Positions 18,599-54,428 of a stretch of DNA of 64,000 nt are shown here, piece by piece (position 1 is the first letter of the stretch; every line of letters begins with the position of its first letter). The stretch is from Metabacillus halosaccharovorans (GTDB lineage Bacteria > Bacillota > Bacilli > Bacillales > Bacillaceae): contig NZ_KV917371.1 in NCBI RefSeq assembly GCF_002019635.1, forward strand, positions 868,001 to 932,000, given 5' to 3'. The notes under the pieces were generated by a model. That model was not told the origin of the DNA. It worked only from the letters and a program-made list of their open reading frames with translations, and did no database searches. The position numbers and the translations under genes are program-made.

Positions 18599-19999
18599 TT
18601 AAACAAGCGTTTGTTTTTTTGATCGATTCCTTAGCATCTCCAACAATTTAACAAATACAAAAGGAGATACAAGCACAATAACTAGCGCTACCCATAACGT
18701 GTTTAAAAGAAAGTCTGTAAAGCCCCCTACAACTACTCGCGGTATATTTACTGTAAAGTAAATAAACAATGAGATGAACAGAGGATTCTTTTGTAATCTT
18801 AGAAAGATGATGTAAATTAATTGAATATAAATTCCAACATATATGGTACCTATTAGTAAGCCAATATAACCGAAGTTTGCAAATGCCTCGCCGGCAAATA
18901 ATGTATTTAGAACACCGGCTGTCCCTGCTTCAACCCGATCTGGAAAATAGGTTTCCATGGCAAGACGTGCAGAACGTATTTGCTCAATATCATATAGTCC
19001 TATAATTGAGGAAGGCATACTTTTTCCCAGTAATAACGGTAAACGGTCTGAAAATAACTCCAAATGCATATAGTAACCAGCGATTTGAGTTAAAATCAAA
19101 CGTCCTGCAGGTCCCCTATTATAGTCTGTAAATTGCTCCAGCCCTACTCCTTGTATAAAGACATACATGATCACAATTAGTGACACACCCAAGGACCCTA
19201 GGATGAAAACACGTGTCCACGTAAGCTTTATGATGTTTAAGTATAGAAGTAAAAGGATAAACATGAGTGTATAGAAAAAGATTGGACCCTTTGCAAGGTC
19301 ATACACTTGAATAAATACACTACAGGGAAATGTAATTAAAAATAGAATCCACCACTTCAGCTTCCTTGTTTTATAGCCATAGATAAAGGTTATCATTGAT
19401 AAGATCGGTGTTAGCCCCAAGGCAAAAATATTTCGAATAAGTGTATTTCCACCAAAATTATGAGAAGCCTCAATACGTAATTCAGCCAGATTATTACTCC
19501 CCAATAACAGCTCGATAATTGGAATCGCTTTTAAATAATATATAGTATAGGCAACCGAAAGAATTCCAATGAATGTTAATCCAACATATATCAAATACGT
19601 TAATGCATCTGTATCAACACGAACAGGTTTTTTAAGATAATCATTGAACTCCTTTTCTGGTTGAAAACCGAGAAGTTTTGAAACAAATAACATAGATAAT
19701 GGCAGCATCACCATAACAAAACATATCGTATAAAAGCCAATAGATCTAAATCGATCATCAGCCAGCAGGTTGATCATATAATGTTCATCAATATTAAGTG
19801 CTATTAAAAGGCTACCAATAAAAGAAGAAATAAATAAAGAATAATAGAAAACAATAGATAAGACATTTGGTTTTAAAATTGACATTGTTCCTGCTGACTT
19901 TTTGAATAACCAAAAAGACAATACACCAACAATCAGCCAAATAGTAAGATAAAACACTTGGACTAGACCTCCATATTGGGTGTTTTCATAATAGTACAT
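18599..19999 (-). CDS. Wzy-like polysaccharide polymerase
   Basis: A 466-residue integral membrane protein with about 11-12 hydrophobic helices and a longer external loop near 290-350 (YNRGPAGRLILTQIAGYYMHLELFSDRLP). This architecture fits oligosaccharide repeat-unit polymerases (O-antigen polymerase family), which join lipid-linked repeat units outside the membrane. Sequence identity in this family is low, so the call rests on topology and context. It follows the sugar-nucleotide operon, after a terminator and a 165-base gap, and may have its own promoter. Confidence 0.75.
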   Translation of the reverse strand: MYYYENTQYGGLVQVFYLTIWLIVGVLSFWLFKKSAGTMSILKPNVLSIVFYYSLFISSFIGSLLIALNIDEHYMINLLADDRFRSIGFYTICFVMVMLPLSMLFVSKLLGFQPEKEFNDYLKKPVRVDTDALTYLIYVGLTFIGILSVAYTIYYLKAIPIIELLLGSNNLAELRIEASHNFGGNTLIRNIFALGLTPILSMITFIYGYKTRKLKWWILFLITFPCSVFIQVYDLAKGPIFFYTLMFILLLLYLNIIKLTWTRVFILGSLGVSLIVIMYVFIQGVGLEQFTDYNRGPAGRLILTQIAGYYMHLELFSDRLPLLLGKSMPSSIIGLYDIEQIRSARLAMETYFPDRVEAGTAGVLNTLFAGEAFANFGYIGLLIGTIYVGIYIQLIYIIFLRLQKNPLFISLFIYFTVNIPRVVVGGFTDFLLNTLWVALVIVLVSPFVFVKLLEMLRNRSKKQTLV

Positions 20000-20127
20000 G
20001 GAGCCAAGGATAAGACGTATAGGAATAGAAGGAGTTCCTTTCCCCTTCCATTCCTATTTGACTTATAACCTTCTGGCGAGCAACACTAATATTTCTCGAA
20101 TAATTCTCCTTGCACTTTATCCATTTA

Positions 20128-20157
20128 AGAAAAAGGGCGACTAGTCATAACCGCCCG
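20128..20157 (-). terminator. Terminator of the main polysaccharide operon
   Basis: On the minus strand GGGCG pairs with CGCCC around a 14-base loop and is followed by TTTTTCTT. It lies just after the epimerase stop. The neighbouring 20000-20127 stretch has an imperfect inverted repeat (GGAATAGAAGGAG with CCCTTCCATTCC) in the leader of the polymerase gene. Confidence 0.7.
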
Positions 20158-20163
20158 TTTCAC

Positions 20164-21222
20164 TTATTTTGCTTCAGACAATAGTTTAACAATCTTCTCC
20201 GATGTATTTCCATCCCCAAATATTGGCGGATAATTTGATTCACAAAGAGATTGAACAGCTTCAACGATTCTTTTTGAATCCGCACCAACCAAAATATTCG
20301 CTCCTTGTTCGACTGTTTCCACCCACTCTGTTTCATCACGGAGTGTAACACATGGAGTTTTGACAAAATAGGCCTCTTTTTGAACACCACCTGAATCAGT
20401 CAGGATCTTCTTAGCATTTTTCTCTAGTGCAAGCATGTCCAAATACCCAATCGGCTCAATAACCTTTAAGCCGGGAATTGACTCAAGATTGATTCCGTAT
20501 GAAGCAAGCTTGTTCTTGGTTCTTGGGTGAATCGGCCATACCTTTGTTCCCTCCACTTTCGCAAATGCATCAAGAATACCTGTGATACGATCACGGTCTT
20601 CTGTGTTTTCAGCACGATGAACTGTAATCAAATAATAGTCATCCTTCGTTAAGCCTAATTCACTTAATAAAGTAGAAGAGTCAGCTATATCCTGATTATA
20701 TATAACTGCATCATACATGACGTCTCCGACATTAAAAACGTTATGTGTAATGTTTTCGTCTTTCAGGTTTTTCACCGCTGTATCTGTTGGACAGAATAAA
20801 AACTCTGAAACGTGATCAGTTAAAATACGGTTTACTTCTTCCGGCATCTTCTTGTTAAAGCTTCGTAATCCAGCTTCTATATGAACGATCGGAATATGCA
20901 GCTTTGATGCTGCAAGTGATCCCGCTAATGTCGAGTTGGTATCACCATATACAAGCACATAGTCAGGCTTTTCTTTTAATATGATCTCTTCAATGCTGAT
21001 AAGCATGTTTGCTGTCTGTACACCATGTGAACCAGAACCAACATTTAAATGATAATCAGGTTTTGGAATATTTAATTCTTCAAAGAAAATATCAGACATA
21101 TTTGCATCATAATGTTGTCCAGTGTGAATAATAATTTCCTGATGCTTTTTTCTGATTTCACGTGATACAGGACCTGCTTTTATGAATTGAGGTCTTGCAC
21201 CTAATATAGTAATGATTTTCAT
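20164..21222 (-). CDS. Non-hydrolysing UDP-GlcNAc 2-epimerase family (WecB/WbpI)
   Basis: A 352-residue cytoplasmic enzyme of the UDP-sugar 2-epimerase family. Motifs are the N-terminal GARPQFIKAGP, HTGQHYD, VYGDTNSTLAG, HIEAGLRSF and a C-terminal TDSGGVQKEA with RDETEWVE. The usual reaction turns UDP-GlcNAc into UDP-ManNAc. In this operon four partner enzymes would supply UDP-GlcNAc(3NAc)A, so the WbpI-type reaction giving UDP-ManNAc(3NAc)A is more likely. Substrate choice cannot be decided from sequence by eye. It is the last gene of the operon, 33 bp after the flippase, and is followed by a terminator. Confidence 0.9.
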   Translation of the reverse strand: MKIITILGARPQFIKAGPVSREIRKKHQEIIIHTGQHYDANMSDIFFEELNIPKPDYHLNVGSGSHGVQTANMLISIEEIILKEKPDYVLVYGDTNSTLAGSLAASKLHIPIVHIEAGLRSFNKKMPEEVNRILTDHVSEFLFCPTDTAVKNLKDENITHNVFNVGDVMYDAVIYNQDIADSSTLLSELGLTKDDYYLITVHRAENTEDRDRITGILDAFAKVEGTKVWPIHPRTKNKLASYGINLESIPGLKVIEPIGYLDMLALEKNAKKILTDSGGVQKEAYFVKTPCVTLRDETEWVETVEQGANILVGADSKRIVEAVQSLCESNYPPIFGDGNTSEKIVKLLSEAK

Positions 21223-21255
21223 GTGATCAACCCTTTTAATGATATTTCCAGCTTC

Positions 21256-22689
21256 TTAAGCAGGTTCAGTTGCTTCAACGGTTTTCTTTCTTAACTCTTT
21301 GTCAATTCTGGTTGCACCGATTGATAATAGGAATGCACCCCAAATCGCAGCAACATACCATAGTGATAATTGATTTTCCTGAACATATGTAATCCCGATT
21401 ACACCTGCAATCATCACAATGAAAAGCAATCCCACTTTAATTGATGGAAATGGGATATAGTAGAGCTTTTGACTTTTTCTGAAAATAAACACAATCGCAA
21501 ACGTGTATGAAATTAACGTAGCTGCCACAACACCCCATATTGAGAAAGCAGGGACTAAAATGAAATTCAATACAATGCTAAGACCGGCAGCAATTGCAAA
21601 GATATACGAAATGACCTTTGTTTCCTTCGTAAAGAAAATACCGATGGAAATAATTAAGTAATAAAAATTCAAAAACGTAGCCGCAGAAATTAAAGCCACA
21701 TATTTATAAGCTGAATGATAGGAATCCTCCATCAGCAAAATAACGTACGGCATAATGGTTGCCACAACGAATACCCCTATTATTCCTAATAAAAAGATAA
21801 TGATGTAAATTTTTGAAAACAATTCCTTGTTGTTTGGTTTATCTTTAATAGACATGGAATAAGGACGCCAAGCCATTTGGATCCCGCTTGTCACAAGAGT
21901 AATCAAAGCCGCAAATTTGGCAGCAGCCCCGTAAATCCCAACTTCTTCAGGTGACTTCATTGTTGCTAAGAAAAAGGAGCTTGAATTCAGGATTATCCAA
22001 AATGCCAGTGATGCAGGTACAAGCGGAAGACCATATTTGATTAAATCCTTGAGTACCTCTCGATTAAGCTTGAAGGTAACAACCTTTGATAAAGGCTTTA
22101 AGATAAGCAAAAAGATCAGTAACCCTGTTAAGATTCTTGCATACATAATTCCTTCAACAGACTGAACGACTAGTTTTAAGAAAAGATAAGAGCCAACGGC
22201 AATCAACAGCATCTTTGTAACAGTCAAAACAACAACTTTAACTGTCTTAAACTCAAAACGCATAACCGTTAAGACAAGGGCAGTAATTGTATCAAAAAAT
22301 AAGACCCCTATACTTAACAATAAAAGGTAAACTCCATTTTCAGCAGGAAGAATACTGCTTGCTACCAAAGGTCCTATCAGAAGAACCAATAAGAAGATAA
22401 CAAGGACCATCGCTAATCTAATCACAAATACATTTTGGGAGTAAATTTTTCTACGTTTTTCATCTTTCGTATCAAAATAATAGAAAGCAAGAGCCGAATC
22501 TGTCCCTAAAAAGACTAAGAACGTTAACATCGTCGTCCAACGGTCTATAATATCGATATATCCAAACTCACCAAGAGGTAATAAATAGGAGTATATCGGC
22601 ATCATAATGAATGCGATTAACTTTGTTCCCACATTCATTAAAGCATAAAGGAGGGAATCCCCTCCTAGACGTTTTAAGTTCTTTAACAA
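21256..22689 (-). CDS. Wzx-like polysaccharide flippase
   Basis: A 477-residue membrane protein with 12-14 helices of the MOP/MVF flippase superfamily (polysaccharide biosynthesis family). The opening LKRLGGDSLLYALMNVGTKLIAF and the GLPLVPASLAFWIL segment around the middle are typical. Such proteins move undecaprenyl-linked repeat units to the outer leaflet for the polymerase. The start abuts the stop of the acetyltransferase gene. Confidence 0.9.
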   Translation of the reverse strand: MLKNLKRLGGDSLLYALMNVGTKLIAFIMMPIYSYLLPLGEFGYIDIIDRWTTMLTFLVFLGTDSALAFYYFDTKDEKRRKIYSQNVFVIRLAMVLVIFLLVLLIGPLVASSILPAENGVYLLLLSIGVLFFDTITALVLTVMRFEFKTVKVVVLTVTKMLLIAVGSYLFLKLVVQSVEGIMYARILTGLLIFLLILKPLSKVVTFKLNREVLKDLIKYGLPLVPASLAFWIILNSSSFFLATMKSPEEVGIYGAAAKFAALITLVTSGIQMAWRPYSMSIKDKPNNKELFSKIYIIIFLLGIIGVFVVATIMPYVILLMEDSYHSAYKYVALISAATFLNFYYLIISIGIFFTKETKVISYIFAIAAGLSIVLNFILVPAFSIWGVVAATLISYTFAIVFIFRKSQKLYYIPFPSIKVGLLFIVMIAGVIGITYVQENQLSLWYVAAIWGAFLLSIGATRIDKELRKKTVEATEPA

Positions 22690-23421
22690 CTATAACAGCT
22701 CCCGTTCCTCAACCATTCTTACAGGTTTAGCCGGGAACCCTTTAACAACCGTTTTTTGATCCGTATCTTTTGTGACTAAAGCCCCTGCTGCAACAAATGT
22801 TTCTTCTTCCACAACAACGCCAGGTAAGAGAATCGATGCTCCACCTACACGTGCTGCTCGCTTCACGACCGCTCCTTTAATTTTATCGAAGCGTTCTTCT
22901 GTACGTCCCATAAAGTTATCATTTGTTGTTGTCACACATGGTGCAATAAAGACGAAATCTTCAAGCGTTGTGTATGCTGTGATATATGCATTTGATTGCA
23001 TTTTGACTCTGCGACCGATTTTCACAAAGTTCTCAACCGTCACCCCTCTACCAACAATACACTCAGGTCCGATTTCAACATTTTCACGGACACTTGCTAA
23101 ATCTGCAACAAGTGTTGAAGATCCAATTGTTGAACCAGCATAAAGCACCGCATTCGTACCGATTGTTACGTCGTTTCCGAGTTGAAGAGGTGCAACTGCC
23201 CCTGAAAGCTTCACAGTTGATGTTTTCCCCGGTGATGGGTGTTTCCCAAGCACAGCTCCGTCTGCAATTCGAACACCGTCACCAACCACTGTTCCTTCAT
23301 AAATTGTCACATGGTTACCAATTGTTACGTTCTCACCAATCTTTACATTTTCACCAATGACATTAAAGTGACCGATTGTAATTGAATCATGAACAACTAC
23401 TGTTGAATGGATACTATTCAT
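22690..23421 (-). CDS. Hexapeptide-repeat N-acetyltransferase (WbpD-like role)
   Basis: A 243-residue left-handed beta-helix protein with many [IV]GxxVxI hexapeptide repeats from residue 13 to about 215. It has a loop carrying the probable active-site region (FIAPCVTTTNDNF, likely catalytic residue nearby) and the closing VVKGFPAKPVR motif. Members transfer acetyl groups from acetyl-CoA to sugar amines. Next to a WbpB/WbpE/WbpA set, the likely step is N-acetylation of the 3-amino group of UDP-GlcNAc3NA. It is longer than WbpD (about 190) because of extra N-terminal repeats. It lies between the dehydrogenase and flippase genes. Confidence 0.85.
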   Translation of the reverse strand: MNSIHSTVVVHDSITIGHFNVIGENVKIGENVTIGNHVTIYEGTVVGDGVRIADGAVLGKHPSPGKTSTVKLSGAVAPLQLGNDVTIGTNAVLYAGSTIGSSTLVADLASVRENVEIGPECIVGRGVTVENFVKIGRRVKMQSNAYITAYTTLEDFVFIAPCVTTTNDNFMGRTEERFDKIKGAVVKRAARVGGASILLPGVVVEEETFVAAGALVTKDTDQKTVVKGFPAKPVRMVEERELL

Positions 23422-23441
23422 ACGATCCGCTCCCGTCTTAA

Positions 23442-24758
23442 TTACAGTTTGATATATCTCTCTGGCTTTTTCGCAACATCTTTTAATGCATTACGAGTAT
23501 CGAATACAACACGGCTGCTGCTTGCAATCATGTCATAATCAAATGTTGTATGGTCTGTCGCAAGTAACACTAAGTCAGCTGAAGATAATAGTTCCTCAGT
23601 TAATTCTACTGTTTCAACCTGCTTATCAATTAATCGGAATGCCGGTACAAATGGATCAACCACTTGATAGTCCGCACCCTCTTTTTCTAATATCGTTAAA
23701 ATATCTAAAACTGGTGATTCACGGACATCATCTATATCTTTCTTATAAGCAACACCAAGAACAGCAACCTTTGCTCCGCGAAGTGCTTTTCCATCATGGT
23801 TTAGAATGCGCATCATGCGATCAACAACTAGCTCAGGCATTGAGTTATTGATTTCACCAGCTAGCTCAATTAAACGAGTGTGATAGTTGTATTCACGAGC
23901 CTTCCACGTTAAGTAAAATGGATCGATTGGAATACAGTGACCGCCAAGACCAGGACCTGGGTAGAACGCCATAAAGCCATATGGTTTTGTTTTTGCTGCA
24001 TCAATCATTTCCCATACATCAATCCCCATTTTTTCACATAGAATCGCCATTTCGTTTGCTAACGCGATATTAATGTGACGGAATGTGTTTTCAAAGATTT
24101 TTTCCATTTCCGCAACAGCCGGGCTTGATACTTCAAACACATCACCTTCAAGAACAGCGCGGTATAATGCAGACGCAACTTTTGTACAATTTTCTGTTAC
24201 ACCACCAACAACTTTTGGTGTGTTCTTTGTTTTGAATTGTTTGTTACCCGGATCAACACGCTCTGGAGAATACGCAACAAATACTGTTTCTCCACAAACT
24301 AAGCCTTTTTCCTCTAAGGCCGGTACAACGATTTCTTCAGTTGTACCAGGGTAAGTAGTTGATTCTAAAACAACTAACATACCTTCACGTGCATACTTTG
24401 CAATTTCTTTTGAAGAGCTTTCTACATAAGATGTATCAGGCTGTTGGTGATGATCAAGTGGTGTAGGTACACAAATTGCCACAGCATCTACTTCTGTAAT
24501 ACGGTTATAATCTGTTGTGGCTTCAAGCATACCAGACTTAATAATTTCTTCTAAATCTTCGTTTACAACGTCACCAATATAGTTTTGAGCATTGTTTACT
24601 TGATCAACACGGCTTTGTTGTACGTCAAAACCGATAACTTTAAAGCCAGCTTTTGCTTTTTCAACCGCTAATGGTAAACCTACATATCCTAAACCAACAA
24701 CTCCAACAACTGCTTGTTTATTTTCAATTTTTGATAAAATCGAATCTAAATGAGACAT
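23442..24758 (-). CDS. UDP-N-acetylglucosamine 6-dehydrogenase (WbpA-like)
   Basis: A 438-residue nucleotide-sugar dehydrogenase, NAD-dependent, oxidising C6 to the uronic acid. The Rossmann motif GVVGLGYVGLPLA is at the N-terminus, followed by ESTTYPGTTEE, YSPERVDPGN and the signature GPGLGGHCIPIDPFYLTWKA with the catalytic cysteine. This signature fits the WbpA group acting on UDP-GlcNAc rather than UDP-glucose dehydrogenases. I prefer the ATG at 24758, eight bases after AAGGAG, over a GTG nine bases upstream. It lies 13 bp after the Gfo/Idh gene. The assigned role is the first step of the UDP-ManNAc(3NAc)A route. Confidence 0.9.
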   Translation of the reverse strand: MSHLDSILSKIENKQAVVGVVGLGYVGLPLAVEKAKAGFKVIGFDVQQSRVDQVNNAQNYIGDVVNEDLEEIIKSGMLEATTDYNRITEVDAVAICVPTPLDHHQQPDTSYVESSSKEIAKYAREGMLVVLESTTYPGTTEEIVVPALEEKGLVCGETVFVAYSPERVDPGNKQFKTKNTPKVVGGVTENCTKVASALYRAVLEGDVFEVSSPAVAEMEKIFENTFRHINIALANEMAILCEKMGIDVWEMIDAAKTKPYGFMAFYPGPGLGGHCIPIDPFYLTWKAREYNYHTRLIELAGEINNSMPELVVDRMMRILNHDGKALRGAKVAVLGVAYKKDIDDVRESPVLDILTILEKEGADYQVVDPFVPAFRLIDKQVETVELTEELLSSADLVLLATDHTTFDYDMIASSSRVVFDTRNALKDVAKKPERYIKL

Positions 24759-24771
24759 TACGTTCACTCCT

Positions 24772-25785
24772 TTATTGTAAAAAGACTTTCTTTCCTGTTT
24801 CGGCTGATTCTAAAAACGCCTCAATAAGCTTGACAGGTGCCAGTCCATCTTTACCAGTTACAACTGGTTCTGTATTTGTTTTAACTGCTCGAACCATATC
24901 TTCAATAATCCACTGATGACCAGGTTTTCCAAATGGGTCTTCTTTGATTGTTTCGATTAGTTTGTTCTTTTCTTCTTCATTTATATCACTTACATTTAAT
25001 GTTTCTAAATAAATTGCGTTCGGACCGCCTACTTTTACTGTTCCAGCTTCACCGAAAATCGATAGTGATTCTTCAAGGTTTTTAGGATAAATGGTTGTTG
25101 CCGCTTCAATGACACCTAAAGCGCCGCTTTCAAATTCAACAACACCAACTGCTACATCTTCTGTTTCAATGTTTCGAAGACGAGTCGCTGCCATCGCTTG
25201 AACTGATTTAACCGGTCCCATGAACCAAATTAAAAGATCTAAATTATGAATTGCCTGGTTCATTAGTACGCCGCCGTCAAATTCCTTTGTACCTCTCCAA
25301 GCAGCTTGATCATAATACTCTTGACCGCGATTCCAGCGCACAGTAGCATTTGCATGGCTAAGCTTGCCAAATAAGCCCTTTGATTTAATATCTTGAAGAG
25401 CTCGAATTGCCGGACGGAAGCGATTTGGGTGAACAACAGAAAGCTTAATATTAGCTTCTTCAGCAAGCTGAATGATTTTCTCGGAATCACTGCTCGTTAA
25501 TGCCATTGGCTTTTCCATGACAATATGCTTGCCTTTAGCAGCAATGATCTCCGCAAGCTTGAAATGAAGACCAGATGGCACACAAATGTTGACAACATCA
25601 ATATCTGCTTGCTGCTCCAGCATTTCATTTAAGTCTGTATAGACATTACATAGACCTTTATATTCCTCAAGACGCTGTTCGTTCGTGTCACAGACTGCAA
25701 CAAGATTTGCCCCTTCAGCATTTTTAATGGCATCGATATGTTTTTGGGCAATAAACCCTGCCCCTACTATCGCAAAATTAATCAT
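24772..25785 (-). CDS. Gfo/Idh-family sugar 3-dehydrogenase (WbpB/WlbA-like)
   Basis: A 337-residue NAD-dependent oxidoreductase. The N-terminal Rossmann motif AIVGAGFIAQKHIDAI, the EKPMAL motif (Lys in the active site), AAWRGTKEFDGGVLMNQAIHNLDLL and the C-terminal beta-sheet domain match the WlbA/WbpB branch. In the pathway it oxidises C3 of UDP-GlcNAcA to give the substrate of the aminotransferase. The ATG follows GGAGGGCTTTAA and overlaps the end of the chain-length gene by 8 bases. Confidence 0.9.
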   Translation of the reverse strand: MINFAIVGAGFIAQKHIDAIKNAEGANLVAVCDTNEQRLEEYKGLCNVYTDLNEMLEQQADIDVVNICVPSGLHFKLAEIIAAKGKHIVMEKPMALTSSDSEKIIQLAEEANIKLSVVHPNRFRPAIRALQDIKSKGLFGKLSHANATVRWNRGQEYYDQAAWRGTKEFDGGVLMNQAIHNLDLLIWFMGPVKSVQAMAATRLRNIETEDVAVGVVEFESGALGVIEAATTIYPKNLEESLSIFGEAGTVKVGGPNAIYLETLNVSDINEEEKNKLIETIKEDPFGKPGHQWIIEDMVRAVKTNTEPVVTGKDGLAPVKLIEAFLESAETGKKVFLQ

Positions 25786-26533
25786 TTAAAGCCCTCCTAG
25801 CTTCACGAATGTATCTCCAAAGCATGATTCCGATAAGTGTTAAGAAGAAGCTTAGTGCAAAAGAGATGAACATGTTTTGAACGAGATAGTTATCTGATTC
25901 TGTGATTTCTTCACTGAGTAATTTAGGCTCTACGAAATCTTCTAAATCTACATTCTTTCGATAAGCTCCATTCTCATACTCTAAAACAATCTCTTCCATG
26001 GTTATAGATCTACTAAGCAGTTCTAAATAGTTTTCTGAAACTATTTGATCTTCCAGTTCTTCTGATGCTTCCTCGATTTCTTTATCGATTAAATCATCTT
26101 TTGCCTTAACATCTTCTTTATTTTGTTCATAGAATTTTAGTGAATTCTCTGTTTGTTCGTATCTGATTTTATAATTTTCTTGTAAGTCTTCAAAGTATTG
26201 TGCTCCGAGTAATGTTAACTCGTTTTGTACGTCTTCTTTATTCTCTCCAACTACTCTTATCTGAACGTTTCCTCTTGATACAACCGAAAAATTAGCTTTT
26301 AGATTTTCTTTTTCTGTTATGTATTTCTCTTTCAATAATAACGGATTTGTCAGATCATCCTTATCAAGAGTGGAAGTATAATAAACAGCCTTCCCCACAT
26401 ACTCACGACTACCAAAAAACGAAAACGCGGACACAATAAGAGCAATAATAATCGGAATAATTAAGAGAATCCATTTTTTACTCCATATAAATACTAGGTT
26501 TTTATAAAATAAATATTCTTTTTGATCAGTCAT
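25778..26533 (-). CDS. Wzz-like polysaccharide co-polymerase
   Basis: A 251-residue protein with two membrane helices, about 20-40 and 220-242, flanking an external segment rich in Glu and Lys and predicted as coiled coil (110-175). This is the Wzz layout for proteins that set polysaccharide chain length together with the polymerase. No kinase domain is attached or adjacent, unlike CpsC/D systems. It overlaps the downstream dehydrogenase gene by 8 bases. Confidence 0.8.
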   Translation of the reverse strand: MTDQKEYLFYKNLVFIWSKKWILLIIPIIIALIVSAFSFFGSREYVGKAVYYTSTLDKDDLTNPLLLKEKYITEKENLKANFSVVSRGNVQIRVVGENKEDVQNELTLLGAQYFEDLQENYKIRYEQTENSLKFYEQNKEDVKAKDDLIDKEIEEASEELEDQIVSENYLELLSRSITMEEIVLEYENGAYRKNVDLEDFVEPKLLSEEITESDNYLVQNMFISFALSFFLTLIGIMLWRYIREARRALND

Positions 26534-26645: not shown

Positions 26646-27755
26646 TTATTGATAGAATTTTGTAATACATTCTACAACATAGTTCTGTTGTTCTTCGCTC
26701 AATTCAGGGAACATAGGCAATGAGATAGCTTCCTTCGTTGCCTTTTCCGTCACAGGGAAATCCCCTTCTTTGTAGTCTAATTCTTTAAACACAGGCTGTA
26801 AATGAAGTGGTTGTGGGTAGTAAATCATTGTTGAAACTCCCTGTTCTGCTAAGAACTTTTGCAGCTCGTCTCTTTTTTCTACACGAATCGTGTATTGGTG
26901 GAACACATGATAGTTTCCTTCAGCCTCTACAGGTGTCACAACTTGATCACCAAGAGCAGCAGTAAGCATTTCTGAATAACGATTTGCATGTGCACGGCGC
27001 TTTTTACTCCACTCATTTAAGTGAGGGAATTTCACATTTAAAATAGCAGCCTGCATTTCATCAAGACGGCTGTTATAGCCCAAAACATGATGATAATATT
27101 TCGGCTTGCTACCATGAACACGAATAACACGCATTTTTTCAGCAAGATCTTCATGTTTTGTTACGATCATACCAGCATCGCCGTATGCCCCTAGATTTTT
27201 CGTTGGGAAGAAGCTGTATGTGGCCGCATCAGCCAGCTCACCTACTGTTTTCCCTTTATATGTAGCACCGATTGCTTGGGCAGCATCTTCTAAAACGAAT
27301 ATATTATGTTTCTTAGCTACTTCCATAATTCCATCCATATCTGATACTTGTCCATAAAGATGTACGGGAATGATAGCCTTTGTTTTGTCTGTAATTTTTT
27401 CTTCAATCTTACTAGGGTCGATATTAAATGTAACAGGATCAATATCAACGAAAACCGGTGTTGCATTACATCTTGCAATTGCACCTGCAGTTGCAAAGAA
27501 TGTAAATGGTGTTGTGATGACTTCGTCGCCTGCTGTTACACCATGTGCTTGAAGTGCAATATGAAGAGCATCACTTCCATTTGCTACTCCAATTCCATAT
27601 GGTACATTACTATATGCAGCAACATCTTGCTCTAATTTTTTGACATTATCACCTAAAATAAAACGTGAGGATTTCATCACCTCATCTAATACTTGAAGCA
27701 TATCATCTCTCAAAGATAAATATTGCTCTGACAAATCGAGCATAGGTACTTTCAT
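26646..27755 (-). CDS. DegT/DnrJ/EryC1 sugar aminotransferase (WbpE-like)
   Basis: A 369-residue PLP-dependent aminotransferase. Motifs are GVANGSDALHIAL (cofactor phosphate), VITTPFTFFAT, VLEDAAQAIGATY with the PLP-nitrogen Asp, and SFFPTKNLGAYGDAG with the Schiff-base lysine. It matches the WbpE/WlbC subgroup that aminates UDP-3-keto-GlcNAcA at C3. It is the first gene of the operon, with an AAAGGAG ribosome binding site and an extended -10 promoter about 50 bases upstream. Confidence 0.92.
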   Translation of the reverse strand: MKVPMLDLSEQYLSLRDDMLQVLDEVMKSSRFILGDNVKKLEQDVAAYSNVPYGIGVANGSDALHIALQAHGVTAGDEVITTPFTFFATAGAIARCNATPVFVDIDPVTFNIDPSKIEEKITDKTKAIIPVHLYGQVSDMDGIMEVAKKHNIFVLEDAAQAIGATYKGKTVGELADAATYSFFPTKNLGAYGDAGMIVTKHEDLAEKMRVIRVHGSKPKYYHHVLGYNSRLDEMQAAILNVKFPHLNEWSKKRRAHANRYSEMLTAALGDQVVTPVEAEGNYHVFHQYTIRVEKRDELQKFLAEQGVSTMIYYPQPLHLQPVFKELDYKEGDFPVTEKATKEAISLPMFPELSEEQQNYVVECITKFYQ

Positions 27756-36388: not shown

Positions 36389-36487
36389 ATACATATCCTC
36401 CATTTCACTTGTTTTCTACGAACCTCTTAATCATATCAAAAAACAGAAAAAAATATGTCGTTTTTTAGGAAATTGTAACTATTTCCT

Positions 36488-45410: not shown

Positions 45411-46820
45411 TTGAAAAAAAGTTTAATTCTTTTGCTATCTTTTGTGGTTTGCTTGTCCATCGTACCACAAATTTCTCTCGCAACTAGTCAATTAAATGGA
45501 TTTGAACAATTAAAAGAGATTAGTAACACAAACCAGGTCATCATCGTTAATAACAGTAGGGGAATAGGAGCTGCCGTAACAACATATGAAAGGACCAACG
45601 GCAAATGGAAAATAGCACTTCCTAAAATGGCAGCAGTCGTCGGCAAAAATGGTATTGCAAGTAAACAAAAAGAAGGAGACGGTATAACACCTGCTGGAGT
45701 ATACACACTAGGGACAGCATTTGGCTGGACAAAAAAACCAAATGGTACTAAGCTTCCATACCGCTTAACAACAGCAAATGACTATTGGGTTGATGACCCA
45801 TCTTCTGCTGACTATAACAAATGGGTAACCTATAGTGGAAATCCTAACACACGTTGGAATTCCTATGAAAAATTAAAAAACCCCCTTTACAAGTATGGAG
45901 TAACCATCGATTATAACGTGAACCCTATTGTTAAAGGAAAAGGAAGTGCCATTTTCTTACACGTTTGGAGAAGCTCAATAAGTCCTACCGCTGGATGTGT
46001 GGCCCTTTCAGAACAGAATGTTGCAAAGCTGCTTACTTGGCTTGATCCTGCAAAAAAACCAATTATTGTTATAGGAAAGACGAATCAAATAAATACTCTT
46101 TTAAATGGATATGCTGAAAAAACAGCCAGTCAATTTGTTGCAGACGCTCAAGTAAAATCAAATAAATTAAGAGGTAAATATGATGCAGCATCCATTGCTG
46201 ACATAACGATTACTCATCAATTCAGTAAAGAATATTCCGCAGCAAAAACTGCTGTTTTAAGTGCCCAAGAAAAAATCAACTTCCTTTCAGGTCCTAAAAA
46301 ACAAGAATTACAGCAAGGTTTGGAAGCTGCAAAAACTCACCAAATGAGAGCAGCACGTTTCATTGATTCTGTGAAATTTGGACAAACTGAAGTAACGACT
46401 TCCAAGGATGAAGTATATAAGATTGTGCAAAATGATACTTTTACGACAGAACTGGTCGAATCCTATCATCTATTATCAGCAAAGATAAAGAAGGAAGAGC
46501 AGTTAATAGGGAAGATATATGGTAGTGAAACACGTAAATACATGGCTGATGCACTAGTAAAACAAGCCAAAATTGTTCGTGAAACAGTCATTTATGAGGT
46601 ATCAATCTATGAATTACTAAAAGAAATAAACAACTTAATAGCCCAAAATAACCATACAAAAGCAAAAGAGGAATTAGAAAAGCTCGATCGTTTAAAGAAC
46701 CGGGCCATTGAAATTAAGAAAACAGGAAATCAATTACACCCAGGTAAATACCCTAATTTGCCAGGAATGAAAGCATATTTAGATGATTACGAGTTGGAAA
46801 CAAGAAGTAAATTAGATTAA
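45411..46820 (+). CDS. L,D-transpeptidase with SbsC-like helical domain
   Basis: A 469-residue secreted protein. Signal peptide 1-24 (ending SLAT). The YkuD-type catalytic domain covers about 40-225, with H184 (IFLHVW) and C196 (TAGCVALS). It can form 3-3 crosslinks or attach proteins to peptidoglycan. From about 235 to the end it is helical, with the module A core LIGKIYGSETRKYM, KQAKIVRETVIYEVSIYELL, RLKNRAIEIKKTGNQLHPGKYPNLPG. This arrangement resembles the M14 protein. The start is TTG after AGAGGAGGTAACATTTC. It is divergent from the LCP gene and convergent with the propeller gene. Confidence 0.9.
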   Translation: MKKSLILLLSFVVCLSIVPQISLATSQLNGFEQLKEISNTNQVIIVNNSRGIGAAVTTYERTNGKWKIALPKMAAVVGKNGIASKQKEGDGITPAGVYTLGTAFGWTKKPNGTKLPYRLTTANDYWVDDPSSADYNKWVTYSGNPNTRWNSYEKLKNPLYKYGVTIDYNVNPIVKGKGSAIFLHVWRSSISPTAGCVALSEQNVAKLLTWLDPAKKPIIVIGKTNQINTLLNGYAEKTASQFVADAQVKSNKLRGKYDAASIADITITHQFSKEYSAAKTAVLSAQEKINFLSGPKKQELQQGLEAAKTHQMRAARFIDSVKFGQTEVTTSKDEVYKIVQNDTFTTELVESYHLLSAKIKKEEQLIGKIYGSETRKYMADALVKQAKIVRETVIYEVSIYELLKEINNLIAQNNHTKAKEELEKLDRLKNRAIEIKKTGNQLHPGKYPNLPGMKAYLDDYELETRSKLD

Positions 46821-46860: not shown

Positions 46861-49248
46861 TTAAATAGAATACTTCCAAAGCCGGGCACCATCATGGAAA
46901 TAAATTGTACCGTCAGTATCCTGAATTACTTGTTTTACATCTTTCTTAGTTCGTAAAAACACAAGTTTTTTGTTATTAGGATTTAGTTTAAACATTGTTC
47001 CTTCCACTACTCCATACAAATATCCATCTTTTCCAATAAGTAACGATCCATTTGGTGAATGTCCAGAAACATCTTTTACGATTTTTTTGCTAAAAACAAC
47101 ACCCTTCGCCGGGTCGTATGCATAAAGAATTTCATCAGCCAATCCCCACACCATTCCATTATTGGCAACGGTTATCGCAGAGTAGAAGCGTATATTGCTA
47201 AATGGCATTTTCAACACGACAGGATTAGCATTCGGGTTGTTTGCAGAGACGGTAAACAGCACAGCATTTGTTTTTGACGGATCTACATTTGGCTTTCCGA
47301 AAATGGATGTTCCTCCGTATACCACCTTCTGATGTTTTGAATATGCAAGAGATACAATACTTTGATTTGGAATCAGTTTATTCTTTACAACAGTTTTATT
47401 ATTACTTACGTCCAGGATTGCCAAAGCTCCTCCAGCATATCCAGAGCGAGGAGTTGTTCCAATATACAGCTTGTTTGTACCCGGAACATTGATAACAGCA
47501 GTTGGTCGATCTTGTCCATAGCCTTGCAAATTCAACAGCTCTGTTTTTTGATTAGTTTGTGGCTGATATTCGATAATTTTTGCCTGCGGATAGACTCCCA
47601 AGTACATTTTTCCATTGATTGGAGCAGAGTCTTCCACCTGACCGGTTGTGCCTCTCGTAGTTGTTTCATTTGCATCTGAAGAATACACAGCTAAGCTTCC
47701 ATTTAAAAATCCACTGCTATAAATATTTCCACTATTATCTGTTCCAATATGATGCAATTCTATAGGTTGTGCAGGAAGCGTCATCAAATCATGCTGAAAC
47801 ACATCACTTTTGAAGCTATATGTGAAATAACGCTCGTTGTTTCCAAGCTTTCCAGCTAATGTATAGCCGTTGTTTCCCTCATTTATAAGGCTAAATGATG
47901 TAACCGTACTCGGTACTTTCCCTTTGACAACTTCTTTACTTTCTTTTGTTGTTACATCAAAGGAAAAGATTGAATTTCCATTTCCATAGTAGATAACATT
48001 CCCATGCTTTTCTGAAACACCAAACGAAGTCGCAGGGAATTCTCCTAAATATTTTTTTGAATTAACATCAAAATATAGAATTTTTGCGCTTGGGTTAACC
48101 TTTACGAACAATAAATTATCTACTACATCCAGGGATTGAATCGATTTTTCGCCTTTATACTTGCTTGGTAAAATCGATTGCTTCTTTTTCGTTTTCAAGT
48201 CAAAAGCAATAAGATCAACAGGCGAGCCTATTCCTGCAAACAGTGTATTATTCGAAGCATATGCGACACTCTTGGCATCCTTTTTTCCTGAAACAATTGT
48301 CCCATAATCATAGAATCCTTTTCCTTCTTCGTATTTGAAGGCTTTCCCTTCATTTGAAGTTACACCATAAACAGCTTTCGTTGAAGCAGAATAGTCAAGA
48401 TCCCAGATAACTGTATTATTTATCGACGTTGCTTTGCCGAGCTTTGTCAATTTCTTTGTATTTACATCATATTTATAAAGCATCTCATTTGGTGTTGTTC
48501 CGATATAGTACGTACCTGGGGAGCCTTGTTCAATCGACCACCCAGTCGTTGTATCAGCTAGTGCTTTAACATCTACTAGAGCCTTTGTATAAAGGTTTGT
48601 GACTGCTAAAGTACCAGGCATTCCTTGCAGGACTGAAAGCATTAGCGGTTCACCGTTACTGCTTGTACCAAACGCGGCTGTTGAAACATTGATATTTGTT
48701 AATTGCGGACCTAAATTTTGAACAAGATTTCCTTTTCTTACTCTTTTTTCTGCGTTGGTTAGATAGGCTGAAACCCTTGATGGAAGCTGCGCATAGCCGC
48801 CAGCCTTTTTGATTTCAACCGCTCTTTTTTTCAAGCGGTCAAGTTTCCTCAAATCACTATTTCCTTTAGAGGTGTTACCATCAAAAAAAGATCTCTCAAT
48901 GGATTCTATCAATCTTAATTGGGAGATTTCATAAATTACCCGCTCTTTGGTTATCTTTGAAGGGTTAACATATTTATTTAATAGCTTTGAACGATTTGAG
49001 CTTCCTGATACCTTTCCAATCGCTCTCTCCATTTTCCCAATTGTGTTTGTAAAGTCATTATAAAGCACATCGACTTTTTCTATATCTCCTAAATTAATCG
49101 CTTCTACGACAAGTTGATTTAGTTGAACTAGTTGCTTCCCTGCATTTTCAGCATTCTTATACGCAGCGTTTGCTGCTGAAGCCGGGTTTGACAACAAGAG
49201 AACCTGAACTAGAAGTATAGAAGCTAAAACGATTCTCATTCCTCGCAA
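46861..49248 (-). CDS. SbsC-like domain joined to a secreted beta-propeller
   Basis: A 795-residue secreted protein. Signal peptide 1-25 (ending ASAAN). Module A covers about 35-165, with AIGKVSGSSNRSKLLNKYV, PSKITKERVIYEISQLRLI and RLKKRAVEIKKAGGY. Residues 175-795 are propeller blades (YIGTTPNEMLYKYD, VIWDLDYSASTKAVYGVT, YIGTTPRSGYAGG). The propeller is paralogous to that of the 39060-41657 protein, but the wall module sits at the opposite end and is of the other type. A TTG start at 49248 is eight bases after AGGAGG. No catalytic site is evident. Confidence 0.85.
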   Translation of the reverse strand: MRGMRIVLASILLVQVLLLSNPASAANAAYKNAENAGKQLVQLNQLVVEAINLGDIEKVDVLYNDFTNTIGKMERAIGKVSGSSNRSKLLNKYVNPSKITKERVIYEISQLRLIESIERSFFDGNTSKGNSDLRKLDRLKKRAVEIKKAGGYAQLPSRVSAYLTNAEKRVRKGNLVQNLGPQLTNINVSTAAFGTSSNGEPLMLSVLQGMPGTLAVTNLYTKALVDVKALADTTTGWSIEQGSPGTYYIGTTPNEMLYKYDVNTKKLTKLGKATSINNTVIWDLDYSASTKAVYGVTSNEGKAFKYEEGKGFYDYGTIVSGKKDAKSVAYASNNTLFAGIGSPVDLIAFDLKTKKKQSILPSKYKGEKSIQSLDVVDNLLFVKVNPSAKILYFDVNSKKYLGEFPATSFGVSEKHGNVIYYGNGNSIFSFDVTTKESKEVVKGKVPSTVTSFSLINEGNNGYTLAGKLGNNERYFTYSFKSDVFQHDLMTLPAQPIELHHIGTDNSGNIYSSGFLNGSLAVYSSDANETTTRGTTGQVEDSAPINGKMYLGVYPQAKIIEYQPQTNQKTELLNLQGYGQDRPTAVINVPGTNKLYIGTTPRSGYAGGALAILDVSNNKTVVKNKLIPNQSIVSLAYSKHQKVVYGGTSIFGKPNVDPSKTNAVLFTVSANNPNANPVVLKMPFSNIRFYSAITVANNGMVWGLADEILYAYDPAKGVVFSKKIVKDVSGHSPNGSLLIGKDGYLYGVVEGTMFKLNPNNKKLVFLRTKKDVKQVIQDTDGTIYFHDGARLWKYSI

Positions 49249-49980: not shown

Positions 49981-50155
49981 AATGACAATTTTTTTAAAAC
50001 AGACAAAAATATTGTGAAACTATGTCGATATAAAAGTATATCCTGACAAATCTATATAAATATTTAGTTAATTCGCTCCACTATTTTACATAATTTTCAA
50101 TGTTCTTTTACTATAATTATTTATAAGGTTCATAACTTAATAGGTGGTGTTTATT

Positions 50156-51523
50156 TTGAAACGAGTGGGCATATTTTTTATTTTATTCATTAGTTTTTTT
50201 GCTTTTTTTCAACAACCTGCGGAAGCTTCAGGTGATCAATTAATCATTATTAACAAAAGCACCAATAAACTGGCTTTTTTTGATGACGGAAAGCTTATCA
50301 AGGTATTTAATGTTGCAACAGGCAGACGTGACTCCTATACTCCAGAGGGGAAATTTAAGATCGTAAACAAAATCAAAAACCGTCCTTACTACAAGGAAAA
50401 TATCCCGGGCGGTGATCCCAGAAACCCTCTTGGTGACAGATGGCTTGGACTAGATGCAAGAGGTACATATGGTACAACATATGCAATCCATGGTAACAGC
50501 AACGAAAGCTCAATAGGGAAGTATGTCAGCTCAGGCTGTGTGAGACTGCATAACAACGAAGTTAGATGGCTTTTTGGTCAGTTAAACCTTTACACAACAG
50601 TCATTATTACTGATTCAGGAGCTTCCTTTGAGAAATTAGCTGTCGAGCATGGGTATCTCGATCAAAACCTGTTAAATAAGCAACTAGCAGAAAAAGCAGG
50701 GAGTAAGTTGCTCAGCGAATTATCAGCCTATAACTCTGCAATAAATTCAGGATCCATTTCAAAGATTAATAGTTTATATGATCGTCTAACATCCCAGCTT
50801 AAAGCAACAGAACTGGCAACCGGAAAGGTTAGTGGAAAAAGCAATCGAGAAATACTTGAAGCAAAATACATCCGGCCTTCCAAAATTGCCATTGAACGTA
50901 CGATTTATGAGGTATCACAATATCGATTACTGAATGACGTGGGGGTACTCATTTCTAAAAATAAAATTAGTACAGCCGAAGATCAATTGTCGAAGCTGGA
51001 AAGACTGAAAAAGCGTTCAATCGCTATTAAAAAGGCAGGAAATTATAAAGCATTACCTGCAAACGTTGATCGGTCACTTCTAGCCTTAAAAGCAACAAAT
51101 GAAGGAAACATTATGAACACAACACTAGCTCAGTTTAATCAAACAATCTCAGCTGGAAAAATCGGAACCATTAACAGCCAATATGATTCCTTCACAAAAA
51201 AATTGCGAGCAACGGAAATCGCAATTGGTCAAGTGTACGGCAGCACCAATCGTAACAATCTCGGCGATATGTATATTACACCTTCAAAGGTGGCAGTTGA
51301 ACGGGTTATTTATGAAGTCTCTATCTATCGTCTATTAAACGAGATTTATTGGTTACTCGATGATAACAAATTAAATCAGGCAAGAAATGAATTTTCAACG
51401 CTTGACCGTCTAAAACGAAGAGCCATCGAAATTAAAAAGAATGGTGGCTATCAATCTGTTCCTGACTCGATTTCAAGAAGTTTATCATCGTTTGAGAATA
51501 GATTAAAAACACAAGTAAAGTAA
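50156..51523 (+). CDS. L,D-transpeptidase with two SbsC-like modules
   Basis: A 455-residue secreted protein. Signal peptide 1-24 (ending PAEAS). YkuD domain at about 27-150, with H112 (YAIHGNS) and C128 (SSGCVRLHN), the classical motif. Two tandem module A copies follow: about 180-300 (TGKVSGKSNREILEAKYI, RPSKIAIERTIYEVSQYRLL) and 310-450 (IGQVYGSTNRNNLGDMYI, TPSKVAVERVIYEVSIYRLL). Each ends with RLKxRxIxIKxxG. It is the only protein here with two copies. I prefer TTG at 50156, eight bases after AGGTGG; two GTG codons upstream overlap that site. A strong terminator follows. Confidence 0.9.
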   Translation: MKRVGIFFILFISFFAFFQQPAEASGDQLIIINKSTNKLAFFDDGKLIKVFNVATGRRDSYTPEGKFKIVNKIKNRPYYKENIPGGDPRNPLGDRWLGLDARGTYGTTYAIHGNSNESSIGKYVSSGCVRLHNNEVRWLFGQLNLYTTVIITDSGASFEKLAVEHGYLDQNLLNKQLAEKAGSKLLSELSAYNSAINSGSISKINSLYDRLTSQLKATELATGKVSGKSNREILEAKYIRPSKIAIERTIYEVSQYRLLNDVGVLISKNKISTAEDQLSKLERLKKRSIAIKKAGNYKALPANVDRSLLALKATNEGNIMNTTLAQFNQTISAGKIGTINSQYDSFTKKLRATEIAIGQVYGSTNRNNLGDMYITPSKVAVERVIYEVSIYRLLNEIYWLLDDNKLNQARNEFSTLDRLKRRAIEIKKNGGYQSVPDSISRSLSSFENRLKTQVK

Positions 51524-51527
51524 GGAT

Positions 51528-52600: not shown

Positions 52601-52658
52601 TGTGTACAAAATCCAGCAAATGGATTTTTCTATATAAATATATATTTGGGGGAATTTG

Positions 52659-54428
52659 ATGTTTTCAAAAAAAGCACTACTTACGTTTATTTGTGCCTTG
52701 ATTTTCATCTTTATAGGCACCAACGAATCATTTGCTGCATCAGCCACAGCAAACGTAAAAAAACAAGGTAACTCACTTCAAGACAGGCTTACAACATTTA
52801 ACAAGATAATTAATAGTGGTGATATCCAACATATTGATCGTCTGTATGATGACCTTTCAAAACAAATTAAAACAACTGAAGCTGCCATTGGGAAAGTATC
52901 CGGCAAGAAAAACCGCGATGCATTACTAGCGAAATATGTGGTAAACGCAAAGATTGCTAGAGAACGCGTGATTTATGAAGTTTCTCAATATCGCTTACTC
53001 CAAAAGATTGATAACCAGCTTTCACAGCAGCAATTTAATCAAGCAAAAAGTAATTTAGCTAAACTGTCACGCTTAAAGAATCGTGCAGTTGAGATCAAGA
53101 AAACAGGTGGTTACCAAGCTGTTCCTGCAGCCATAGCTTCTACGTTAAATAAATGGGAAGGTAACCTTTCCTCTCAAATAAAAAAAGATAACGAAGGAAT
53201 AACAGAACTATGGCAGCTACAATTTAAGGGAGAGCCTTTGTTTGATAAAACAAATGTACAGGCTGACGGCTCCCTTCAATATGGGAATTACAACATTATC
53301 AATGAAGTTTACCACGCAGACATTATGTCACTAGATGATAGTGGAAAGAAACAGCATTCTTGGAATATTACTGAGGAACAGGTCGATCGTGGTGGCACGG
53401 ATAAAGATCCGAAGGTTCTCACGATTAAGTATTCAGAAGGTATCATCAGCTCATATACAATGGATGGTGACTTAGAATGGACCTATTCCCTAAAGCAACC
53501 GATCGATAAATTCGAACATTATTATGATGTTGACCAAAATGGAACAATCTATATTTTTCTTGACGATCAAATTAAAGCTATTTCGTCTAAAGGAAAACTT
53601 CTTTATTCCATTCCTAAGCCAACAGCTGAATTTAATATAGAATATGCGAATGATGGTTCAGTTTATGTATTGGATATTCAAACAAATAATTGGAAAGAAA
53701 GTACCTTTATTAAATATACAAACACAGGAATAGAAGAATGGCGACAAAGCTTATCTGTTGACCGTGAAGACATTAACACAATTTTTCACTACGACATTGT
53801 TAAGGTAGAAAATAATGCTTATGTTTACATCGGATATGATACAGACGAGTACTTTAATTCTTTAAGAGTCCTTTATTCCTTTGATACATCTGGAGATGTA
53901 AACTGGTCAATCGATTCAATTGGCTACGTATATGAAAATGGAATAAAAGAATACAACAATGAGACACTTGTTCTATCAGGCGCTGATTTTTATGTGATTG
54001 ACTCATCTGGTCATATTAAAAAGGAGTCAGAGGTAATTGCAAAAAATCCATATGGATATAACACTGACGAGATTTATGCAAATTACTTTCTATCAAATGG
54101 AAAGCTAATTTTTAATACATCGAAATTTTTAGCAGCCTTGAATCCAAACGGTGCTTATAGCTGGAAAACAGATATTGCTGATTCCCAATGGTACAGCAGC
54201 ATGAAGCCTATAGACGATATTATTGTGTTAACGTATCACGAGGAAAACCAGACACATATTTACTCAAATACTGGTAAAAAACTCGGAACATACTCATTTG
54301 GAGCTAATGGATCTGCTCAATTATTATCAGGTAGCAATACACATACAAATTCATTATACTTTGTACAAACAAGCTATAATGAAGAAAAAGACGAGAGTCA
54401 TACAATTTTACGTGCTTTAAAATATTAA
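52659..54428 (+). CDS. SbsC-like domain joined to PQQ-type propeller
   Basis: A 589-residue secreted protein. Signal peptide 1-26 (ending SFAAS). Module A covers about 35-170 (IGKVSGKKNRDALLAKYV, NAKIARERVIYEVSQYRLL, RLKNRAVEIKKTGGYQAVP). Residues 180-589 are a beta-propeller with tryptophan-containing blades (LEWTYSLKQP, EWRQSLS, VNWSIDSIG, YSWKTDIADS), closer to PQQ-like propellers than to the other two propeller proteins here. ATG after TTGGGGGAATTTG. No enzyme site is visible; it is a wall-bound binding or scaffold protein by inference. Confidence 0.85.
   Translation: MFSKKALLTFICALIFIFIGTNESFAASATANVKKQGNSLQDRLTTFNKIINSGDIQHIDRLYDDLSKQIKTTEAAIGKVSGKKNRDALLAKYVVNAKIARERVIYEVSQYRLLQKIDNQLSQQQFNQAKSNLAKLSRLKNRAVEIKKTGGYQAVPAAIASTLNKWEGNLSSQIKKDNEGITELWQLQFKGEPLFDKTNVQADGSLQYGNYNIINEVYHADIMSLDDSGKKQHSWNITEEQVDRGGTDKDPKVLTIKYSEGIISSYTMDGDLEWTYSLKQPIDKFEHYYDVDQNGTIYIFLDDQIKAISSKGKLLYSIPKPTAEFNIEYANDGSVYVLDIQTNNWKESTFIKYTNTGIEEWRQSLSVDREDINTIFHYDIVKVENNAYVYIGYDTDEYFNSLRVLYSFDTSGDVNWSIDSIGYVYENGIKEYNNETLVLSGADFYVIDSSGHIKKESEVIAKNPYGYNTDEIYANYFLSNGKLIFNTSKFLAALNPNGAYSWKTDIADSQWYSSMKPIDDIIVLTYHEENQTHIYSNTGKKLGTYSFGANGSAQLLSGSNTHTNSLYFVQTSYNEEKDESHTILRALKY

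Follow-up and report, generated by a model that had tools for sequence, protein, structure and literature searches.

Gene content of the locus

In this study, we analysed a stretch of 64,000 nucleotides (the window; C1:868001-932000) of the 5.40-Mb genome of Metabacillus halosaccharovorans, in which a putative wall-polymer operon (18599-27755), the secA2-slaP gene pair and a run of genes for surface proteins carrying one of two recurring modules, here designated A and B, are found side by side (Table 1). An earlier note on this DNA had taken the three parts for a single surface system that works without SLH domains. The operon and the gene pair were located as described there, and the ten module-bearing proteins between 31409 and 54428 (six with module A, in seven copies, and four with module B), the LCP ligase within their run and the GH73 protein left of the operon, an eleventh module bearer, were all confirmed. 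In 4-kb steps, the GC content of the window was 0.33-0.40.

Table 1. Features of the locus; positions are those of the window unless C1 is given
Feature	Position	Strand	Basis
degU-degS-like two-component genes (presumed), left landmark	5801..7735	-	named from sequence
GH73 glucosaminidase, C-terminal module B	17396..18544	+	PF01832; module B profile
Wzy-like oligosaccharide repeat unit polymerase	18599..19999	-	TIGR04370 67.5 bits, cut-off 40
WbpI-like UDP-2,3-diacetamido-glucuronic acid 2-epimerase	20164..21222	-	PDB 8sxv E 1.3e-119
Wzx-type flippase	21256..22689	-	PF01943 71.4 bits
WbpD-like N-acetyltransferase (hexapeptide)	22690..23421	-	PF00132; PDB 3fs8, 3mqg
WbpA-like nucleotide-sugar dehydrogenase	23442..24767	-	PF03721/00984/03720; TIGR03026 446 bits
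WbpB-like 3-dehydrogenase, survey marker	24772..25785	-	PDB 3q2k E 1.1e-64
Wzz-like membrane protein	25778..26533	-	weak Wzz E 0.011; kept in relatives' operons
WbpE-like aminotransferase	26646..27755	-	PF01041 446.6 bits; PDB 3nyu E 7e-81
SecA2, B. anthracis type	28080..30452	+	TIGR04397 1098 bits, cut-off 1085
SlaP accessory Sec S-layer assembly protein	30433..31281	+	TIGR04399 349 bits, cut-off 250
SLT transglycosylase with module B	31409..32941	-	PF01464; module B profile
NlpC/P60 endopeptidase with module A	32953..34062	-	PF00877; PF18058 40.3 bits
M14 zinc carboxypeptidase with module A	34235..36403	-	PF00246; PF18058 1.1e-26
S8 subtilase with module B	36552..38987	-	PF00082; module B profile
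Beta-propeller-like protein with module B	39060..41657	-	36% identity, 639 aa, to 46861 protein
GH18 and LysM protein with module B	42035..44065	-	PF00704, PF01476; module B profile
LCP-family glycopolymer transferase	44219..45193	-	PF03816 157.6 bits
L,D-transpeptidase (YkuD1) with module A	45411..46820	+	PF03734, PF18058; 2ra1 match
Beta-propeller-like protein, N-terminal module A	46861..49248	-	PF18058 40.7 bits
L,D-transpeptidase (YkuD2), two module-A copies	50144..51523	+	PF03734; PF18058 71 bits
590-aa secreted-type protein with module A	52656..54428	+	PF18058 41 bits
Wzy_C O-antigen-ligase/polymerase-like membrane protein	54478..56220	+	PF04932 46.5 bits
Second large S8 subtilase (1174 aa), inside the island, no module A or B match	56266..59790
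C-terminal part of a module-A protein (CarboxypepD_reg, FIVAR)	62315..64000	-	PF13620, PF07554
SbsC-type lattice candidate (887 aa)	C1:960102-962765		PF18058 106 bits

Export genes and anchor modules

Both SecA2 and SlaP scored above the curated cut-offs of their families; their genes overlap by 20 bases, and SlaP holds two SLAP_DUP stretches. The lack of SLH domains proposed for the window was borne out genome-wide, with no match in 5.4 Mb in a search whose controls matched in 4/14. No csaB was seen among the scanned proteins of the window and its flanks, although the genome itself was not searched for this gene.

Instead of SLH, six window proteins carry PF18058 above the Pfam cut-off. A profile built from the seven module-A copies matched the solved SbsC chains 4uj6, 2ra1 and 4uic with E values of 3.6-3.9e-11 (chain residues 89/90-200), and the YkuD1 protein (45411) as a lone query matched chain 2ra1 with an E value of 1.6e-5. 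In spite of its Pfam name, SbsC_C, PF18058 spans residues 56-192 of a 902-residue SbsC-type protein and is therefore an N-terminal region, which binds wall polymer according to passages of a review (PMC3297441). The kinship to SbsC that had been suspected for the modules is thus supported for module A, which is homologous to the wall-polymer-binding region of SbsC. Judging from the named families, module A would bind an acidic secondary wall polymer non-covalently. The net charge of the six module-A regions in the window was +1 to +18, and four of the five module-B regions were positive (+9 to +15) and one was -3; positive charge is compatible with an acidic polymer, without amounting to proof.

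Module B consists of approximately 190 residues in three like units (pairwise profile probabilities 99.35-99.47%), and all 10 pairs among its five window carriers matched one another (BLAST E 2.8e-13 to 1.7e-46). No Pfam or NCBIfam model reached its cut-off on this module, and a five-row profile searched against solved structures gave no convincing match (best 5lg9, E 0.39) and no SlpA chain. Among 25 module-B members, weak Pfam matches were found to SH3_2 (4/25, best E 0.0004) and SlpA (4/25, best E 0.046), the remaining ones looking accidental; the likeness to SlpA/SLAP (PF03217) stayed below every cut-off. Module B thus lacks a clear family and is new as far as these searches show. A relationship between the two modules was considered and rejected by profile comparison (probability 0.06%). 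One of the two beta-propeller-like proteins carries module A and the other module B, so that the modules look interchangeable, and module B might conceivably bind the same polymer.

The polymer operon

The route to UDP-2,3-diacetamido-2,3-dideoxy-mannuronic acid has five ordered steps, and all five enzyme families (WbpA, WbpB, WbpE, WbpD and WbpI) are covered by the one operon. The matches differ in specificity, the epimerase being the most and the dehydrogenase the least specific. The 2-epimerase (20164) matched 8sxv far better than the UDP-GlcNAc 2-epimerases 1o6c/4fkz (1.3e-119 vs 1.6e-43), and the WbpB-like protein matched, besides 3q2k, the entry 3o9z named wbpB (E 6.7e-11). The WbpE-like protein matched WbpE (3nyu), but 7b0d scored higher; the WbpD-like protein matched 3mqg (E 7.6e-18), but QdtC (3fs8, E 8.5e-28) scored higher. 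For the WbpA-like protein the match was Cap5O (1.3e-75), which leaves its substrate not resolved by sequence.

No glycosyltransferase family was matched among the eight operon proteins. Three glycosyltransferase-family proteins, a Bac_transf initiating sugar transferase, UDP-sugar enzymes and another LCP protein are encoded to the right of the gene for an 887-residue protein located beyond the window (see below). The weakly matched Wzz-like protein has a homologue beside wbpE/wbpB in three relatives' loci (L045-L047) and in all of a further eleven (L095-L105). Hence the polymer containing diacetamido-mannuronic acid that the earlier note had postulated finds its nucleotide-sugar pathway in the operon; such a composition, and attachment of the polymer by LCP enzymes, would be expected from the named families.

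Extent of the island and its client proteins

Whole-genome profile searches (E ≤ 0.001) detected 16 module-A matches in 13 proteins and 7 module-B matches, all of them within C1:885987-962450, a 77-kb stretch of the genome, and clustering is therefore more than chance would give. The reported run of surface proteins stands, but not its end point, as the island continues for about 31 kb past the window. Six more module-A proteins lie wholly outside, another ends within the window at 62315 (its longest open reading frame starts at C1:933839, with module A at C1:933045-933509 and PF18058 in L024:2-2839), and two proteins have a partial module B. The outside members include an Amidase_3 protein, a 5'-nucleotidase, a CAP protein, a metallo-beta-lactamase-fold protein, a 768-residue protein and two PPC-type proteins with partial module B.

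Near the right end of the island, 28 kb past the window, lies an SbsC-type protein of 887 residues, which by eye has Ig-like repeats and a signal peptide. SbsC-type proteins in five relatives' loci are of comparable size (883-912 residues), and the protein is a candidate for the lattice protein of an S-layer. A domain typical of wall hydrolases is present in 5/20 module-bearing proteins (GH73, SLT, NlpC/P60, GH18 and Amidase_3) and an L,D-transpeptidase domain in 2/20. The view that wall hydrolases make up most of the clients and stand in place of a single lattice protein therefore fails.

Which of these clients would need SecA2 can only be conjectured. In Bacillus anthracis, slaP, slaQ and secA2 are described as supporting the secretion of S-layer proteins (in passages of PMC9277125), and an ordinary-looking N-terminal hydrophobic segment is present in most window clients (unclear in the GH18 protein). 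Both points favour a narrower form of the explanation developed below, in which SecA2-SlaP exports the 887-residue lattice candidate only, and the enzyme clients use SecA and merely share the polymer anchor. We give this form slightly less than an even chance.

Several other elements were noticed inside the island. A c-di-GMP-I riboswitch (L024:4956-5020, plus strand; C1:935956-936020; 43 bits, cut-off 35) lies about 120 bases upstream of a gene for a module-B/PPC protein, a position which suggests that part of the system may be under c-di-GMP control. In addition, pieces of a group II intron (L025:1117-2888, minus strand) surround a reverse-transcriptase-like open reading frame (1199-2473, named by eye), and a cluster of four tRNAs (Ser, Ala, Thr and Val) is found at L025:4591-4984 (minus strand).

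Co-occurrence and gene neighborhoods in relatives

Of 80 genomes surveyed from the family, 11 had SlaP above cut-off, 13 had module A and 12 had module B. Every SlaP-containing genome carries module A (9-36 matches) together with module B, and only G070 (1 match) and G074 (3 matches) have module A, and only G068 (weak matches) module B, in the absence of SlaP. Among the matches listed for genus g1, many module copies are near slaP and some elsewhere.

A larger survey covered 397 genomes drawn evenly from the order, in which a genome with at least five SLH matches was regarded as SLH-type (a recorded count of 17 means at least 17). SlaP was detected in 156 genomes, PF18058 in 42 and SLH in 194, of which 135 had five or more matches. 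Of the 156 SlaP-containing genomes, 108 have SLH only and 25 have SbsC with fewer than five SLH matches; both anchors occur in 8 and neither in 15. SbsC or SLH-type anchors were found in 28/241 SlaP-negative genomes. In the genomes below five SLH matches, the counts for SlaP and SbsC together, SlaP alone, SbsC alone and neither were 25/15/9/213 (Fisher p 2e-17, a test that ignores kinship). The nearest SbsC match was within 50 kb of slaP in 22/32 genomes having both, from seven families, vs 2.6 expected (G313, whose slaP position was not listed, was left out of the 33). Module B was present in 18/33 genomes with SlaP and SbsC and in 15/364 others.

The operon was traced by its WbpB in 160 genomes, i.e., the 33 with SlaP and SbsC, the 15 with neither anchor, the 9 with SbsC but no SlaP and 103 of the 108 with SLH only. 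At 427 bits or more, WbpB was found in 22/33, 0/15, 0/9 and 9/103 of these, respectively, and 20 of the 22 genes in the first group are within 20 kb of slaP, the other two being on another contig. At 600 bits or more, WbpB was restricted to 17 genomes, all with SlaP and SbsC and all (17/17) with module B, vs 7/143 of the other tested genomes. This bears on the question whether module B is instead a general SH3b-type binder of wall or peptidoglycan. The SH3_2 match of one member at E 0.0004, better than any of the weak SlpA matches, and the 15 genomes that have module B without the SlaP-SbsC pair speak for such a role. Against it stand the way in which module B tracks this WbpB class and the two genes for the same propeller-like protein, one with module A and one with module B, and we regard it as rather unlikely.

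In L045-L047, wbpE, the Wzz-like gene, wbpB, wbpA and wbpD/wzx (complete or cut by the end of the stretch) adjoin secA2-slaP, together with module-A and module-B genes. The same adjacency was observed in Rossellomorea (L055), with a weak module-B protein and no module A in the stretch, and in the eleven loci L095-L105 (f13, f47, f3, f20, f40 and f42), all of which have module-B or module-A genes; module B is the only module type in those of f40 and f42, and an SLH protein is also present in f40. Three f30 loci have wbpB and wbpA near slaP as part of a different operon, with no module matches in the stretch. Thus, as the earlier note had expected, the polymer genes, secA2-slaP and the genes for SbsC-N/module-B proteins are found in the same genomes and close together in many relatives.

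Such proximity could also have a more trivial origin, if the operon, the accessory Sec pair and duplicated wall genes had come to share a degSU-LCP region, a hot spot for wall-polymer genes, by history and do not form one system. In the present genome, two-component genes that we take to be degU-degS-like mark the left side of the locus, and DegU-like and LCP genes share a 20-kb stretch with secA2-slaP in eight relatives' loci (L051, L052, L054, L056, L058, L060, L061 and L063); an SLH protein is visible in six of these as well (L052, L054, L056, L058, L060 and L063). The clients are, moreover, paralogous in their anchors. However, most of their cargo domains lack homology to one another, and the clients are therefore not accounted for by whole-gene duplication; in addition, two unrelated anchor families track the same WbpB class (17/17). 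Five genera (g18, g45, g71, g90 and g77) contain both anchor types, the SbsC members of g45 and g90 having at least five SLH matches as well; in these, the WbpB class was found in all SbsC members of four genera and in 2/5 of g71, vs 0/8 SLH-only members (sign test 5/5, two-sided 0.0625, with genera chosen after the fact). Two more genera, g51 and g79, were ties without the WbpB class. Taken together, a mere hot spot seems improbable to us.

Six of the 15 genomes with SlaP and neither anchor were inspected as 20-kb loci. No secA2 open reading frame was called beside slaP in G255, G328, G369 and G281 (L109, L111, L112 and L113, respectively), which have no SbsC and fewer than five SLH matches, and G261 has secA2 but no known anchor in the stretch. 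In G280, a secreted-looking protein of 806 residues without any Pfam or NCBIfam match is encoded beside secA2-slaP (L110:4342-6762, minus strand); it may be a lattice protein whose anchor is of a third type.

Phylogeny of SlaP

In a tree of 91 SlaPs, 33 sequences from SbsC genomes of eight families, G437 (see below) among them, formed one clade (bootstrap 100, SH-aLRT 97; the bootstrap had not fully settled), which takes in most SlaPs of the SbsC type. WbpB is present in 21/24 tested members of this clade, and SbsC-positive genomes outside it that lack WbpB are G108, G198, G215, G224, G365, G415 and G423. Four genera (g18, g45, g71 and g90) each have SlaPs both inside and outside the clade, which suggests that the whole cassette may have been exchanged among relatives. 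The SLH genome G362, whose WbpB gene is about 9 kb from slaP (C11:71084-80844), was placed as sister to the clade (95/94); it is possible that it represents an intermediate in which the polymer preceded the anchor. G193 is SbsC-positive and has WbpB. A quick tree had suggested an independent re-pairing in this genome, a claim that was dropped because its joining the SbsC clade was not rejected (p-AU 0.818, the constrained tree being the better one), and the careful tree leaves its placement unresolved.

A link to the SbsC system known from biochemistry was seen in G437, which encodes a protein of 902 residues. Over residues 32-291, this protein matches SbsC chain 2ra1 at 3.1e-132, and about 20 of the first 206 aligned positions were counted by eye as different (approximately 90% identity in the SbsC N-terminal region). 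About 40 kb separate its gene from slaP, which here forms one locus with secA2, the flanking wbp operon, an SbsC-N gene and module-B genes. From this protein, G437 is probably a Geobacillus.

A probable SbsC version of the SecA2-SlaP locus

Gene content, homologies, clustering, co-occurrence and linkage were observed directly. The reading that we favour, with a probability of about 0.75, is that the locus is an SbsC/diacetamido-mannuronate version of the known SecA2-SlaP S-layer locus, with the anchoring chemistry of SbsC instead of SLH. The left operon would make UDP-2,3-diacetamido-2,3-dideoxy-mannuronic acid; Wzx, Wzy, the Wzz-like protein and the glycosyltransferases and initiating sugar transferase on the right side would build an acidic secondary wall polymer, which LCP enzymes would attach to peptidoglycan. 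SecA2 with SlaP would carry out, or assist in, the export of the S-layer protein and possibly of further clients, and the lattice protein and some 20 other proteins would bind the polymer non-covalently through module A or module B. The single SLH-independent system of polymer, exporter and clients outlined by the earlier note is thus retained in the absence of SLH, the SbsC-type module, the pathway and the co-occurrence, and was abandoned in its picture of hydrolases in place of a lattice.

On the other hand, several observations weigh against this reading. Co-occurrence rests mainly on one SlaP clade, and when the SbsC-WbpB association was paired on the SlaP tree to correct for kinship, only 5 pairs were obtained. 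The WbpB thresholds were chosen after gaps had been seen in the data. No WbpB of the operon class was found in 11/33 genomes with SlaP and SbsC, three of which (G209, G234 and G444) are inside the clade, and the class did occur in the 9 SLH-only genomes mentioned above, within 50 kb of slaP in G362 and G377 (about 39 kb), the slaP position of G116 not being listed. In 6/32 genomes there is no SbsC match on the slaP contig and in 4 more the nearest is 61-600 kb away, while many module-B matches in other families are weak single units. Module-bearing genes are scattered in genus g4, among the matches listed, so that confinement to one locus is a feature of the present genome and not general. Clustering of the clients may partly come from local duplication, and SecA2-SlaP could serve the lattice protein alone.

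A further-reaching proposal is that SlaP with SecA2 is matched to the polymer or the anchor, that operon, exporter and both anchor families are inherited or exchanged as one cassette with its own SlaP lineage, that close relatives carry either an SLH cassette or this diacetamido-mannuronate/SbsC/module-B cassette, and that module B is a new three-unit polymer binder. We put this forward tentatively and would lean somewhat against it at present.

Comparison with known systems

The layout recalls several S-layer loci. In Clostridioides difficile, the slpA/cwp locus combines SecA2, the lattice protein, CWB2 anchors and the polymer PSII and is not known to include SlaP. The present island is similar in having SecA2, a lattice candidate and many paralogous anchor proteins for a presumably anionic polymer in one locus, and differs in its anchors, its polymer and the presence of SlaP. 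As to the Lactobacillus SlpA/SLAP domain, the units of module B resemble it only weakly. The S-layer locus of B. anthracis and B. cereus holds slaP, slaQ, secA2, csaA, csaB and the lattice genes (sap, eag) together, according to passages of PMC9277125. The same curated SecA2 and SlaP families, and exporter, polymer genes and putative lattice gene in one locus, are found here, but SbsC-N, module B and a diacetamido-mannuronate pathway replace SLH anchors and csaB. With the SbsC S-layer of Geobacillus stearothermophilus, the locus shares the N-terminal binding region and, by gene content, the kind of sugar: mannuronic acid is mentioned for the wall receptors of Geobacillus SbsC-type S-layers in passages of PMC2571106, whose reference list includes a 1999 paper with a diacetamido-uronic-acid polymer of G. 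stearothermophilus in its title. In contrast to SbsC, which is described as a lattice protein in the available text of PMC3297441, the binding region is here also present on a dozen other proteins. The available text of that review, the only paper in our searches to contain both SbsC and SecA2, treats the two separately and links SecA2 export with SLH proteins. Our literature searches found no link of SbsC to SecA2-SlaP, nor ManNAc3NAcA together with secondary cell wall polymer, an absence that is weak because most subscription papers were outside the coverage. The parts are of known kinds; within the reach of these searches, novelty lies in their combination, their spread and module B.

These findings suggest that the export system known from surface layers of the anthrax type also operates with an anchor of quite another kind, which would separate SecA2-SlaP export from SLH anchoring. 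For the open question of how SecA2 selects its S-layer proteins, they provide a comparison made by nature, in which one exporter family is paired with clients whose anchors are unrelated. In addition, the N-terminal region of SbsC would no longer be confined to a few lattices of thermophiles and would probably serve enzymes as a wall anchor more generally, and module B may be a second anchor for the same polymer.

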